This document shows positions 12,316 to 29,326 of a DNA stretch of 64,000 bases, piece by piece. Position numbers and translations under genes: made by a program. Within the stretch, counting starts at the first letter, position 1, and each line of letters opens with the position of its first letter. Source of the DNA: Pedobacter riviphilus (lineage in GTDB: Bacteria > Bacteroidota > Bacteroidia > Sphingobacteriales > Sphingobacteriaceae); the NCBI RefSeq assembly GCF_014692875.1, contig NZ_CP061171.1:4588001-4652000 (forward strand). Direction: 5' to 3'. The notes beneath the pieces were generated by a model, which was not told where the DNA came from, did no database searches, and saw only the letters and a program-made list of their open reading frames with translations.

Positions 12316-12873
12316 TTATTCTACAGTGAATTCTTTCTTAAACGATTCTAAAACGCGGCCGCCCTTGTAAAAATAACGGCTGTAATAAGGTTCGTTAAGG
12401 TTGCTGATTACCACACCACGAGAACTTGATGCATGTGCAAATCTGTTATCGCCCAGGTAAATACCAACATGTGAAATACTTCTGCTTTTAATCTTGAAGA
12501 AAACTAAATCGCCTTCTTTTAAATCTTCTTTTGATAATGGATCTACCATGCTGAAAATATCGCGTGAATTTCTTCGAATGGTGGTGTTGAAAACTTTATC
12601 GTAAATCGCTTTGGTAAAAGCCGAACAATCGATTCCTCTTTTGGTGTTTCCACCATAACTATAAGGAGTTCCGATCCATTCGTAAATAAACTTGTACAGT
12701 TTTAAATTCGAAGTCGCATCTACCGCAACGCCCATAACCTGCGAAAAATATTGGGATGCAAGGTTATCAGGATCATTTAATTCTTTACCAGATTCTTTTG
12801 TTTTTGTTTGCGCAAATGCGGCTGAGAGCGTGCAAATAGCAATTAGAGTAGAAAACAAAATTTTTTTAATCAT
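12316..12873 (-). CDS. NlpC/P60 family cell-wall endopeptidase
   Basis: 185 residues with a signal peptide (cleavage after FAQ, near residue 22). The C40 catalytic residues are visible: Cys83 in RGIDCSAFTKAIY, His135 in SISHVGIYLG and His147 in RFAHASS. The domain fills most of the mature protein, and no SH3 or LysM module is present. It should cut the peptide stems of peptidoglycan (gamma-D-Glu to diamino acid bonds). Single gene with its own terminator. Confidence 0.9.
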   Translation of the reverse strand: MIKKILFSTLIAICTLSAAFAQTKTKESGKELNDPDNLASQYFSQVMGVAVDATSNLKLYKFIYEWIGTPYSYGGNTKRGIDCSAFTKAIYDKVFNTTIRRNSRDIFSMVDPLSKEDLKEGDLVFFKIKSRSISHVGIYLGDNRFAHASSSRGVVISNLNEPYYSRYFYKGGRVLESFKKEFTVE

Positions 12874-14393: not shown

Positions 14394-16055
14394 ATGGCTG
14401 ATGTAATTAAAATGCCCAAAATGAGCGACACCATGACCGAAGGGGTTTTGGCAAAGTGGCATAAAAAAGTGGGCGATAAAGTGAAAAGCGGCGATGTTTT
14501 GGCAGAAGTAGAAACTGACAAAGCAACAATGGATATGGAATCTTATTGGGATGGTACACTTTTATACGTTGGTGTAGAAGAAGGAACAGCTGTTCCTGTT
14601 GATGCTATCATGGCCGTTATTGGTAAAGAAGGCGAAGATTATAAAGCAGCATTAGAGGCTGAAAAAGGCGCAGAAGCTCCAAAAGCAGAAAGCACCGAAG
14701 CCCAAAAAGCTGAAGAGAAAAAAGAAGAAGCCGCACCGGCTCAGGGTGGTGGCTTAAGCGAAGAAGAATTAGCTGCAAAAGGTGTTACGGTTATCCGCAT
14801 GCCTTTGTTAAGCGATACCATGACTGAAGGCGTTATTGCCGAATGGCATAAAAAAGTTGGCGATAAAGTAAAAGACGATGATGTTCTTGCTGACGTAGAA
14901 ACCGATAAGGCAACTATGGAAGTAATGGGCTATGCAACCGGAACTTTATTGCATATTGGTGTAGAGAAAGGTGCCGCTGCAAAAGTGAACGGAATTATTG
15001 CTATCGTTGGTCCAGAAGGAACTGATGTAAGCGGAATTTTAGCAGGAGGCTCAGCACCAGCTCCAAAAGCTGAAACTGCAGAAGCACCCAAAGAAGAAAA
15101 ACAAGCTACAAACGCCAATACAAATGCACCTGCTCCAGTTGCAGAAAGCGCTTCTGATAGCCGTGTTAAAGCATCTCCTTTGGCCAAGAAAATTGCTAAA
15201 GATAAGGGTATCGATTTAGCGCAGGTTGCAGGTAGTGCAGAAGGCGGTCGTATCATTAAAAAGGATATCGAAAACTTTAAACCAGCTGCTGCTCCGGCAA
15301 AAGCAGAATCTGCAGCTCCAGCTGCTGAAAAAGCTGCTGCACCAGCACCAGTTATTCCGCAATATGTTGGTGAAGTTAAATTTACAGAAGCCCCAGTTTC
15401 GCAAATGCGTAAAGTAATTGCAAAACGTTTAGCAGAAAGTTTATTCACTGCGCCACATTTCTATTTAACCATAAGTATTGATATGGACAGTGCGATAGCT
15501 GCTCGTACGGCTATTAACACAGTTGCTCCTGTTAAGGTTTCTTTCAACGATATCGTAATTAAAGCGGTTGCCGTTGCATTGAAAAAACACCCTGCTGTTA
15601 ATTCATCGTGGGGTGGCGACAAAATCAGGTTTAACGAACACACCAACATTGGTGTAGCTATGGCCGTTGAAGATGGCTTATTGGTACCAGTAGTCCGTTT
15701 CGCTGATGGTAAATCTCTATCACACATCTCTGCAGAAGTAAAAGATTTTGGCGCTAAAGCAAAAGCTAAAAAATTACAGCCAGCAGATTGGGAAGGCTCT
15801 ACTTTCACCGTTTCTAACTTGGGTATGTTTGGTATTGACGAATTTACTTCAATTATCAACTCTCCTGATGGCGCAATTTTATCAGTAGGTGCAATACAGC
15901 AAGTTCCGGTGGTTAAAAACGGTGCTGTTGTTCCTGGTAATGTTATGAAATTAACTTTAGGTTGCGATCACCGTGTGGTTGATGGCGCAACCGGAGCACA
16001 ATTCTTACAAACATTAAAAGGTTTATTAGAAGAGCCAATCAGGTTATTAGCATAA
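14394..16055 (+). CDS. pdhC: Pyruvate dehydrogenase E2 (dihydrolipoyl acetyltransferase)
   Basis: 553 residues with two N-terminal lipoyl domains (lipoyl lysines Lys43 and Lys172, each in VETDKAT), alanine/proline/glutamate-rich linkers, a peripheral subunit-binding domain (SPLAKKIAKDKGIDL through GGRIIKKDI), another Ala/Pro linker, and the C-terminal catalytic domain ending with the active-site motif DHRVVDGATGAQF. It transfers acetyl groups to CoA and forms the core of the complex. Co-transcribed with pdhA from the promoter at 13334, and terminated by the hairpin at 16100. Confidence 0.95.
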   Translation: MADVIKMPKMSDTMTEGVLAKWHKKVGDKVKSGDVLAEVETDKATMDMESYWDGTLLYVGVEEGTAVPVDAIMAVIGKEGEDYKAALEAEKGAEAPKAESTEAQKAEEKKEEAAPAQGGGLSEEELAAKGVTVIRMPLLSDTMTEGVIAEWHKKVGDKVKDDDVLADVETDKATMEVMGYATGTLLHIGVEKGAAAKVNGIIAIVGPEGTDVSGILAGGSAPAPKAETAEAPKEEKQATNANTNAPAPVAESASDSRVKASPLAKKIAKDKGIDLAQVAGSAEGGRIIKKDIENFKPAAAPAKAESAAPAAEKAAAPAPVIPQYVGEVKFTEAPVSQMRKVIAKRLAESLFTAPHFYLTISIDMDSAIAARTAINTVAPVKVSFNDIVIKAVAVALKKHPAVNSSWGGDKIRFNEHTNIGVAMAVEDGLLVPVVRFADGKSLSHISAEVKDFGAKAKAKKLQPADWEGSTFTVSNLGMFGIDEFTSIINSPDGAILSVGAIQQVPVVKNGAVVPGNVMKLTLGCDHRVVDGATGAQFLQTLKGLLEEPIRLLA

Positions 16056-27419: not shown

Positions 27420-27962
27420 TTAACTAATATCTTCGCGCTTTAACTTTATATAGATGGCTAAACTGATAAGCTCATCTTTTTTAATTTCACAGTTCTCCAT
27501 TGTTTTCTGATAATCAAAATCAAGTTTTTGCAGCACCTTTTTGCTGTTTTCATTTTTAGTTTCAACCACGGCCTCGATCTTTATTAAGCCTAATTTCTCA
27601 AAGGCATAATTGCAAACGGGATTTGCTACTTCTTTAATGATACCTTTTCCCCAATGTTCGGGCAACAGCCAAAAACCGATTTCAGCCTTTTGATCCGTTT
27701 TACTTAAATCATTAAACCCTATCGCGCCTAAGAGACTAAGGTTTTCTTTATCGCAGATGGCCCACCAAATACCTGTTTCATTTTTTTGAAGGTCATTGAA
27801 CCAGATCAATTGCTCATTGGTTTCCTCTAGGCTAGAATAGCGCACACCGTAATAAAGGATCACATCCGGATGAGATAATCCTTCAAAAACAAATGCTAGA
27901 TCGTCAGAACAAAATTGTCTTAATAAAAATCTATTCGTGTGTATTGTCGCTGAAGCAAACAT
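27420..27962 (-). CDS. GNAT family N-acetyltransferase (RimJ-like)
   Basis: 180 residues from the ATG at 27962, which overlaps the stop of tag by one base (TAATG); a TTG at 27974 is the only longer option. The protein has the RimJ/RimL-type layout: the N-terminal strand TNRFLLRQF, LGAIGFNDLS, IGFWLLPEHWGKGI with the acetyl-CoA loop, and KIEAVVETKNENSKKVLQKLDF at the end. It should acetylate a protein N-terminus or a small amine. It is translationally coupled to tag. Confidence 0.82.
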   Translation of the reverse strand: MFASATIHTNRFLLRQFCSDDLAFVFEGLSHPDVILYYGVRYSSLEETNEQLIWFNDLQKNETGIWWAICDKENLSLLGAIGFNDLSKTDQKAEIGFWLLPEHWGKGIIKEVANPVCNYAFEKLGLIKIEAVVETKNENSKKVLQKLDFDYQKTMENCEIKKDELISLAIYIKLKREDIS

Positions 27963-28549
27963 TACCTTGCGCAACAGTTTAATAAATGGTCATTCACCAT
28001 TCCGGTTGCCTGCATATGGGCATAGCAGATAGTGGTGCCGAAAAATTTGAAACCGCGTTTTTTCATGTCTTTACTGATCTGATCAGAAAGTTCGGTTCTT
28101 GGCGGCACATCACCCATTTTTTCGATGTGATTTTGAATCGGTTTACCATCCGGAACAAAACCCCACATGTATTTAGAGAAACTGCCAAATTCTTTCTGAA
28201 TTTCGATAAATAGCTTGGCATTCGTGATTGCGCCATTAACTTTTAAACGGTTGCGGATAATGCCTTCATCGTTCATTAACCTTTCTACATCTTTTTCTGT
28301 AAAAGCAGCTACTTTATTAACATCAAAATCGGCAAAAGCTTTACGGTAGTTTTCCCGTCTTCGAAGAATAGTGATCCAGCTTAAACCTGCCTGGGCACCT
28401 TCGAGTATTAAAAATTCGAATAAAATTTTATCATCATAAACAGGCTTTCCCCATTCTTCATCATGATATTTGATGTAAAGCGGATCGGAGCCAGCCCAGC
28501 TGCAGCGGATTGTTAAGTCCTCAGTCTTGAGTCCAGAGTCTTGAGTCAT
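27962..28549 (-). CDS. tag: DNA-3-methyladenine glycosylase I
   Basis: 195 residues. The Tag family is clear from RCSWAGSDPLYIKYHDEEWG and the zinc ligands Cys16, His29, His188 and Cys192 (the His-x3-Cys spacing matches E. coli Tag). It removes 3-methyladenine from alkylated DNA. Oddly, the first twelve or so residues (MTQDSGLKTED...) are encoded by a heptad-repeat tract (28513-28547), so the ATG itself comes from that tract; there is no other start codon before RCSW. The next gene (GNAT) overlaps its stop. Confidence 0.9.
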   Translation of the reverse strand: MTQDSGLKTEDLTIRCSWAGSDPLYIKYHDEEWGKPVYDDKILFEFLILEGAQAGLSWITILRRRENYRKAFADFDVNKVAAFTEKDVERLMNDEGIIRNRLKVNGAITNAKLFIEIQKEFGSFSKYMWGFVPDGKPIQNHIEKMGDVPPRTELSDQISKDMKKRGFKFFGTTICYAHMQATGMVNDHLLNCCAR

Positions 28550-28989
28550 ATTATGCGAATTTTGCAGGATTGTTAATCATAAAGTTTAATAATTTGCTTA
28601 TCTCTTCACATTGACTATCCAAGTGATTGAATTTTTCCTCAGAAATATAGTTACATGCAAGCGCTACATCTAACCAAACTTGCGTTTCACCATTTTCCAT
28701 ATCGGCGTCTGATAATTTGCTGATGAAATGATTTGGATACCTTCTTTTTTTATAAGCTTCACCTATACTGCTACAAACAGACCTAGAAGATCTGCGAATT
28801 TGGTCTACCAAACTATATTGCTCAGATTTGGGAAATTCTTTTGTTAACATAAAGATATCCATCAACAGAGAAAATCCTTTTTTATAAACCATTAGTTCTC
28901 TAAATTTCCCCATAGTTTTTTAAAACTAATATAACAATTTGAGAGCAGAATAAAGACTCTAGACTGAGGACTTAAGACTCGGGACTAAG
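28513..28989. mobile_element. Heptad-repeat-bounded element carrying a four-helix-bundle gene
   Basis: The left end (28513-28547) is five exact-period 7-mers NNNAGTC, and the right end (28955-28989) five 7-mers GACTNNN, so the ends are inverted. 28513-28533 and 28955-28975 match as an inverted repeat at 20 of 21 bases. Between them is one gene for a 120-aa four-helix-bundle (S23) protein. The ends overlap the tag start codon and the stop codon of the CMD gene. This plan recalls 23S rRNA intervening sequences, but the location is between protein genes. Mobility is inferred, not shown. Confidence 0.6.
28551..28913 (-). CDS. Four-helix-bundle protein (S23/IVS-encoded protein family)
   Basis: 120 residues, all helical. 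It has the typical pattern MGKFRELMVYKKGFSLLMDIF, then FPKSEQYSLVDQIRRSSRSVCSSIGEAYKKRRY, as in four-helix-bundle proteins first found inside 23S rRNA intervening sequences and related to the accessory protein of diversity-generating retroelements. They form pentameric barrels with a basic surface and are thought to bind nucleic acid. The gene stands alone, bracketed by inverted heptad tracts, between tag and a CMD gene. No reverse transcriptase is near. Confidence 0.88.
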   Translation of the reverse strand: MGKFRELMVYKKGFSLLMDIFMLTKEFPKSEQYSLVDQIRRSSRSVCSSIGEAYKKRRYPNHFISKLSDADMENGETQVWLDVALACNYISEEKFNHLDSQCEEISKLLNFMINNPAKFA

Positions 28990-29326
28990 CATTCAATTCA
29001 TCCCAATACTCCACCGCTCTCCTATAATGTGGAATTACAATACTACCGCCTACAAGATTGGCGATCATGAAAATTTCGTTCATCTCATCGTGGCTTACAC
29101 CGGCATCGAAACATTTGCCCAAATGGTATTTAATACAATCATCACAGCGCAAAACCATCGAGGCTACCAAACCTAACATCTCTTTCGTTTTAACATCTAA
29201 GGCTCCGTCTGCATAGGAAGTTGTATCGAGCGCAAAAAAACGTTTAATATTTGTATTTGCCGTTTCCATTATCCTATCGTTCATTTTTTCACGATAGCCA
29301 TTAAATTCTTCTACAAGCTTTCCCAT
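28985..29326 (-). CDS. Carboxymuconolactone decarboxylase-family protein
   Basis: 113 residues with the AhpD/CMD motif: Cys61-Asp-Asp-Cys64 followed by IKYHL, where His68 completes the CxxCxxxH pattern. Such proteins are usually peroxidase-like or decarboxylase-like oligomers. The stop codon (TAG, 28985-28987) lies inside the right-hand heptad tract of the four-helix-bundle element. The neighbours are DNA-repair genes, which may mean a shared alkylation/oxidation stress role; that is inference. Confidence 0.83.
   Translation of the reverse strand: MGKLVEEFNGYREKMNDRIMETANTNIKRFFALDTTSYADGALDVKTKEMLGLVASMVLRCDDCIKYHLGKCFDAGVSHDEMNEIFMIANLVGGSIVIPHYRRAVEYWDELNA

Follow-up and report, generated by a model that had tools for sequence, protein, structure and literature searches.

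Heptad arrays around a four-helix-bundle gene

Why should a small four-helix-bundle (4HB) gene, placed between two protein genes, be bracketed by inverted arrays of seven-base units, and do such arrays belong to this gene alone? The question was raised by a locus in the window, the 64,000-nucleotide stretch at 4588001-4652000 of the Pedobacter riviphilus genome (5.83 Mb, single contig) analysed here. The features of the locus are as follows, in window coordinates.

27962..28549, minus strand: tag, DNA-3-methyladenine glycosylase I (TIGR00624, E=5.5e-73; PF03352)
28516..28547, minus strand: downstream array of the 4HB gene, five AGTC units on the plus strand (GACT in the gene sense) in 7-base steps
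28551..28913, minus strand: 4HB gene of the S23/23S_rRNA_IVP family, 120 aa (PF05635, E=1.3e-32; TIGR02436, E=3e-29)
28955..28986, minus strand: upstream array of the 4HB gene, five GACT units on the plus strand (AGTC in the gene sense)
28985..29326, minus strand: carboxymuconolactone decarboxylase (CMD) family gene (PF02627, E=2.1e-15)

All three genes lie on the minus strand, in the order CMD, 4HB gene, tag. Counted as full heptads, the left array comprises five NNNAGTC units from 28513 and the right array five GACTNNN units reaching 28989, as an earlier note on this DNA had read them. The inverted repeat of 21 bases that it had described (28513-28533 against 28955-28975) was confirmed by eye, with one mismatch. 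A three-unit heptad pattern had six matches in the window, all inside the two bracketing arrays, and none in 100 shuffles. The overlap of the array ends with both neighbouring genes was also found in the sequence: the TAG stop of the CMD gene is built with letters of the upstream array, and the tag ATG overlaps the last base of the left (downstream) array. The first dozen or so residues of the predicted tag protein are encoded by the array (28512-28549). An array-encoded N-terminus of this kind was seen in some relatives as well, and a short start is present instead in relatives with an empty CMD-tag junction.

A predicted RNA fold pairs the two arrays as a segmented stem around the 4HB gene (-120 kcal/mol, z -4.04), in agreement with the IVS-like plan of an inverted-repeat stem around a gene that had been proposed. 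The element lies outside any 23S or 16S rRNA gene, and no rRNA family reached the Rfam threshold near the locus, the sole match scoring 16.5 against a gathering score of 50.

The sole gene between the arrays encodes, as supposed, a four-helix bundle of the S23/IVP family. The protein scored 112.6 bits against PF05635 (curated cut-off 33.8) and 101.4 bits against TIGR02436 (cut-off 24), and its AlphaFold2 model consisted of four long helices (pLDDT 97). The top fold matches were the S23-family structures 2gsc and 2rld, each solved with five chains, followed by the phage Avd 4dwl. The excerpt of PMC4990558 available to us describes S23p from Xanthomonas as a toroidal homopentamer whose subunits are four-helix bundles, and calls the function of S23 proteins unknown. 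The modelled monomer matches these five-chain relatives in fold, and the window protein may likewise form a pentamer. Avd of the diversity-generating retroelements shares this fold (4dwl, TM 0.80); the protein passed the PF22296 bAvd model (44, cut-off 40) and fell below the cut-off of the NCBIfam Avd model DivGenRetAVD (31.7 bits, cut-off 80). Neither a catalytic nor a transposase domain was detected in it by Pfam or NCBIfam.

Dispersed arrays in the P. riviphilus genome

The arrays were not private to the 4HB locus. The pattern GACTN3GACTN3GACT had 154 matches in the genome, compared with 1 for the reversed control pattern, and the matches grouped into 53 clusters with about 70 arrays. Five was the commonest number of units (31 of 70 scored arrays), and the letters outside the GACT core were loosely HHR. 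The genome contains six PF05635 genes (seven matches, one gene being in two pieces), and the window gene was the only one of them with GACT arrays within 1.5 kb. Many unrelated genes were adjoined by GACT arrays. An exclusive association of these arrays with 4HB genes was thus ruled out, both by the 53 places and by the single associated gene out of six. The earlier note had expected GACTNNN arrays at other family genes of this genome, and had named arrays beside unrelated genes as evidence that would speak against its view; the expectation failed, and such arrays were found.

Fourteen inverted GACT pairs were present in the genome, with 407 bp between the arms in the window pair and 1-153 bp in the others, and unpaired arrays were commoner than paired ones. 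Complementarity of the NNN letters between paired arms was weak (0.54, against 0.47 after re-pairing, p 0.04), and perfect arm pairing was unsupported as a selected feature. Arrays of AACTG and AACTC also occurred, without a cognate gene among the six 4HB genes of this genome.

A second 4HB gene of P. riviphilus, at 4368697 of the genome, was flanked by AAAG/CTTT arrays. The pattern AAAGNNN x4 had 50 genome matches against 1 for the control; the matches include the flanks of the gene itself and five from one AAAGACT array counted in both classes. Within an rRNA operon (L395; genome positions 12553-12586 and 15879-15954) an AAAG array directly follows the second tRNA, and the spacer between the 23S and 5S genes contains an inverted AAAG/CTTT pair. 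The AAAG strings of this operon were found again at two more places in the genome.

Heptad arrays at four-helix-bundle genes in general

We collected 92 4HB genes by hmmsearch of the relatives' loci and the P. riviphilus genome, and searched their flanks with a motif-blind detector requiring four or more 7-mers and a minimum of four fixed columns. Heptad arrays were found within 400 bp of 58 genes, compared with 0 of 157 control tiles (400 bp each, taken from the window outside the 4HB locus). They were present on both sides in 24 cases, on one side in 34 and on neither side in 34, and shuffles of the loci in two-base blocks yielded 0.011 arrays per locus. In 30 phylum-wide loci with 33 4HB genes, arrays were found on both sides of 7 and on one side of 7. 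The genes at which the detector found no array (34 of 92, and 19 of 33 phylum-wide) weigh against the explanation favoured below; they included whole subfamilies, such as the L032 type. Array density peaked within 200 bp of the 4HB gene. It was 27/125 upstream and 47/122 downstream in the first 100 bp, 16/125 and 14/122 in the second; more than 300 bp away, each 100-bp bin had 0-6%.

Each 4HB subfamily had its own core of 4-5 bases, the remaining bases of the heptad being loose. Read in the gene sense, the downstream cores were GACT, AACTC, AACTG, CAATG, CTTT, ACCTT, TAACC, GACnTCG, TACnCAA, TCCTT, GATACT, ATCTCA, AACTTAT and others. The expectation that other members of the family would carry inverted heptad arrays held in this form, with cores of their own, and failed for GACT in this genome. 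The upstream core was as a rule the reverse complement of the downstream core: the inverted match was better than the direct match in 26 of 31 both-sided loci. None of 5000 re-pairings reached the mean inverted-core match, which cannot be read as a clean probability because many of the both-sided loci are orthologous. Five cases departed from the inverted order (L031, one L315 gene, L278, L264 and L340), two of which, L031 and the L315 gene, have several upstream arrays.

In a quick tree built from 70 4HB proteins with arrays (few columns, near-copies included), the 27 core classes, which were assigned by hand, required 26 changes. This is the minimum number, the shuffled mean being 55.9 with none of 200 shuffles as low. 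Part of the agreement between subfamily and core reflects common descent of the gene with its flank. Five units were counted in 11 of 14 GACT-type arrays and in 53 of 101 other gene-flanking arrays, with a detector that needs at least four. The matching layout in many members of the family suggests that each 4HB protein reads its own repeat.

Placement of arrays at stop codons

An array was scored as stop-placed when it started between -10 and +15 nt from the stop codon of an open frame on its own strand with a length of 100 codons or more; AGTC sense means the orientation of the 4HB gene's upstream array. In this sense 36 of 70 GACT arrays began at a stop, as opposed to 1 of 70 in the mirror image and 192 of 10600 random points. 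The stop was TAG in 29 of the 36, and ten arrays had an offset of -2, with the stop codon made by the array's own first letters. The ORF test assigned no stop to the other 34 arrays, which counts against the explanation that we favour below. After exclusion of rRNA operons, of sites close to 4HB genes and of the AAAGACT array, 21 places with AAAG-sense arrays were left, and 20 of them were tested; 8 of 20 were at stops, compared with 1 of 20 in the mirror image, within wider limits (-15 to +30). The strand preference at stop codons points to the transcript.

The CMD-tag junction in relatives

The tag gene was present in 59 of the 60 genomes searched within the genus. We parsed 30 loci and recognised the CMD end in 24, leaving the other six uncounted. 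The junction was empty in five of these 24 readable relatives (L231, L232, L235, L236 and L237), with 17-23 nt from the CMD stop to a conserved tag motif. The insert is thus absent from one set of relatives, in line with the insertion that the earlier note had inferred.

A 4HB gene was present at 15 of the 24 junctions. Seven such genes had GACT arrays, three of them with an in-gene stop codon, and seven belonged to another subfamily, with AACTC/GAGTT heptads. The junction of L225 was a hybrid, its upstream array being AGTC and its downstream arrays ACTC. Four junctions contained other DNA and no 4HB gene (201-263 bp in the three measured), and in L217 and L221 the end of a 4HB gene was left together with one array. 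Two sister 4HB subfamilies (support 92 in a quick tree), with two different cores, were therefore found at the same junction, and we read this as gene and arrays having changed together. In L216, L217, L218 and L221 the 4HB gene is gone from the junction and another repeat-like stretch is present (containing CATGCTGAA...TTTCAGCAT).

Distribution, conservation and origin of the arrays

GACT x5 arrays were patchily distributed, occurring in 20 of 121 family genomes. In a scan of named genomes, Pedobacter and Mucilaginibacter were among the matches listed. Two genomes (G013 and G035) possess PF05635 genes and lack GACT x5 arrays. A set of 49 same-genus genomes was chosen, consisting of 47 of the 60 above and two added for having arrays. 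The 27 with GACT x4 arrays were the same 27 that have a relative of the window 4HB gene, a coincidence given little weight because of shared ancestry and the choice of genomes. GACT arrays also persist in genomes without a cognate gene, a further point against the favoured explanation. Genomes with a broken or truncated GACT-type gene had 50 (G142), 4 (G164), 12 (G152) and 14 (G139) four-unit matches, the assemblies of G152 and G139 being 81% and 78% complete, and those with an intact gene had 89 (G000), 147 (G144), 174 (G151) and 158 (G156). This trend towards fewer matches with a damaged gene is contradicted by three genomes without any close relative of the gene: G124 has 73 matches, G129 97 and G061 103. 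Overall, the distribution across genomes is no proof of a need for the 4HB gene, nor does it speak conclusively against one.

For G148 and for G061, 20 array loci apiece were compared with those of P. riviphilus and with its window. An alignment spanning the array was obtained for 21 of the 40 loci (10 and 11 per genome), a partial match for four and no match for fifteen. Cores were better kept than NNN: identity in the 21 pairs was 538/566 for cores, 240/332 for NNN and 5201/6057 for flanks (gaps excluded), a comparison in which the selection of both partners for having arrays favours the core figure, not the low NNN figure. In two orthologous pairs (L356/L060 and L381/L067) the heptad register was kept and the core letters differ between genomes.

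Within the P. riviphilus genome, 1 of 861 pairs among the NNN of 42 arrays was at least 85% alike (shuffled mean 0.86, maximum 4). Likeness at chance level implies that the arrays are old or were born independently, and recent copy-and-paste spread was rejected on these grounds. Perfect heptad arrays exist elsewhere, as a 15-unit AATGACT run in L042, 8 units in L057 and all five-unit matches listed for G105. These may be young arrays born by slippage. Perfect arrays had different NNN in different genomes (L042, L057; G105, G026, G062, G095).

Proposed function and alternative explanations

We suggest a two-part system, to which we assign a probability of roughly 0.55: a 4HB gene with inverted, usually five-unit arrays, together with dispersed arrays of the same core, the protein binding its cognate array as a pentamer. 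The binding, its RNA level and an effect on transcripts are what we infer. A ring that reads a spaced array, as TRAP does, is suggested by the preferred strand and by the match of five cores, with three loose bases between them, to five subunits. The 4HB protein would form a ring of five subunits, and each of these would recognise a single core of a five-unit array; the target would be single-stranded, more likely RNA than DNA. At the 3′ ends of host transcripts such a ring may protect or mark the end, or affect termination, and in the gene's own transcript the two arrays would form an IVS-like stem around the gene. The failed GACT prediction and the arrays at unrelated genes fit this system, because subfamilies have cores of their own and the arrays would be dispersed cognate sites. 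For the same reason the original idea, a free-standing IVS relative that came to rest between two genes, does not reach far enough. The underlying observation was right and generalises, and the protein family, the predicted bracketing stem and the empty junctions stand; NNN likeness at chance level gives no support to transposition.

The same dispersal could instead reflect a mobile element resembling REPIN/RAYT. Its complete form would be the gene with the arrays at its ends, its miniature copies would be the inverted pairs and its solo ends the single arrays, all spread by the 4HB protein and host enzymes. Such spread would account for a gene bracketed by a dispersed repeat, the 14 inverted pairs, the junction empty in 5 of 24 relatives, the patchy occurrence (20 of 121 family genomes) and the 19 of 40 relatives' array loci that did not align across P. 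riviphilus array loci (15 without a match, 4 partial). However, NNN likeness among 42 arrays does not exceed the shuffled level (1 of 861 pairs, 0.86 expected), the arrays are not palindromic and Pfam and NCBIfam show no catalytic domain in the protein, so we regard this explanation as unlikely.

Subfamily-specific cores are difficult to reconcile with a free-standing IVS of the 23S type, in which the inverted arrays would serve just as an RNA stem for RNase III to cut and the heptad pattern as such would do nothing. Arrays lacking a second arm are also commoner in the genome, and the arms match poorly in their NNN (complementarity 0.54, compared with 0.47 after re-pairing, p 0.04). Although the protein family is the same, a stem is predicted around the gene (z -4.0) and the 21-mer arms have one mismatch, this origin appears very improbable. 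We give still less credence to slippage and decay as the makers of the arrays, with unrelated 4HB genes that happen to lie in repeat-rich intergenic DNA. The core class tracks the 4HB subfamily, the upstream and downstream cores are in inverted order, density peaks at 4HB genes (0 of 157 other tiles), five units are the mode and placement at stops is strand-specific, all of which speaks against slippage; it is favoured by the perfect arrays (15 units in L042, 8 in L057, all five-unit matches in G105) and the unrelated NNN among arrays.

The ring-and-array system might extend beyond this subfamily. S23/IVP proteins would then be a large family of sequence-specific nucleic-acid readers, each with a five-membered ring matched by a subfamily core in about five units, inverted copies around its own gene and dispersed arrays marking host 3′ ends, including pre-rRNA. 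We offer this wider claim tentatively, as a possibility somewhat short of an even chance. If true, many heptad repeats of Bacteroidota are binding sites of S23/IVP proteins, and the two sides of a recognition code, protein and core, evolve together. Such a code could provide a compact ring for chosen spaced repeats and a hint at the purpose of the 23S IVS protein. Linking S23 genes with heptamer repeats gives each a candidate partner and allows a direct bench test.

Comparison with known systems

S23 genes in IVS stems, dispersed heptamers and repeats with a partner gene are already known. For the association of S23/4HB subfamilies with their own heptad cores we found no precedent: within the library and terms searched, no paper tied S23/four-helix-bundle genes to heptad arrays. 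Proof of cognate binding would make the system a kind of its own.

The 23S rRNA IVS, for example that of Coxiella, as far as the excerpt of PMC4990558 describes it, resembles the window element in having an S23-family gene inside an inverted-repeat stem and a sporadic distribution. Inverted-repeat ends forming a stem around the ORF, which characterise an IVS, are likewise predicted by the fold here. Unlike that IVS, the window element lies outside rRNA, its arms are spaced heptad arrays and arrays of the same core are dispersed. REPIN/RAYT, judged by the sections of PMC3116915 at hand, likewise combines a gene with a flanking repeat that is also dispersed outside genes, often in inverted doublets, and we found both the dispersed inverted doublets and the repeat beside the partner gene. 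The partner there is a RAYT (Y1/HUH) transposase, whereas here it is a four-helix bundle; the repeats here are non-palindromic spaced heptads with loose letters and no sign of recent copying, and recent common descent of the copies is contradicted by NNN at shuffled level.

TRAP is a proposed analogue in which the number of ring subunits equals the number of spaced short repeats. It is an unrelated protein, with 11 subunits and 11 (G/U)AG repeats according to the available part of PMC4027176, and with proven binding, which in our case is inferred.

The TAACTGA heptamers of Beggiatoaceae, cyanobacteria and five Bacteroidetes are similar in being tandem 7-base units at gene boundaries. The portion of PMC4679880 consulted proposes a possible post-transcriptional role for them, places them mostly before start codons in its main genome and names S1, Csp and Csr proteins as candidate binders. 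TAACTGA is one fixed 7-mer, whereas the window system has a fixed core only, favours stop codons and has a named cognate 4HB gene. The arrays here are not direct TAACTGA repeats, their core being GACT with loose NNN. Many matches of the reversed control pattern TCAGNNN x5 were recorded in genera g21 and g25 (G025, G042, G092, G098, G104, G109 and G114), with 163 in G025; these other family genomes use another heptad core, with letters close to the published TAACTGA.
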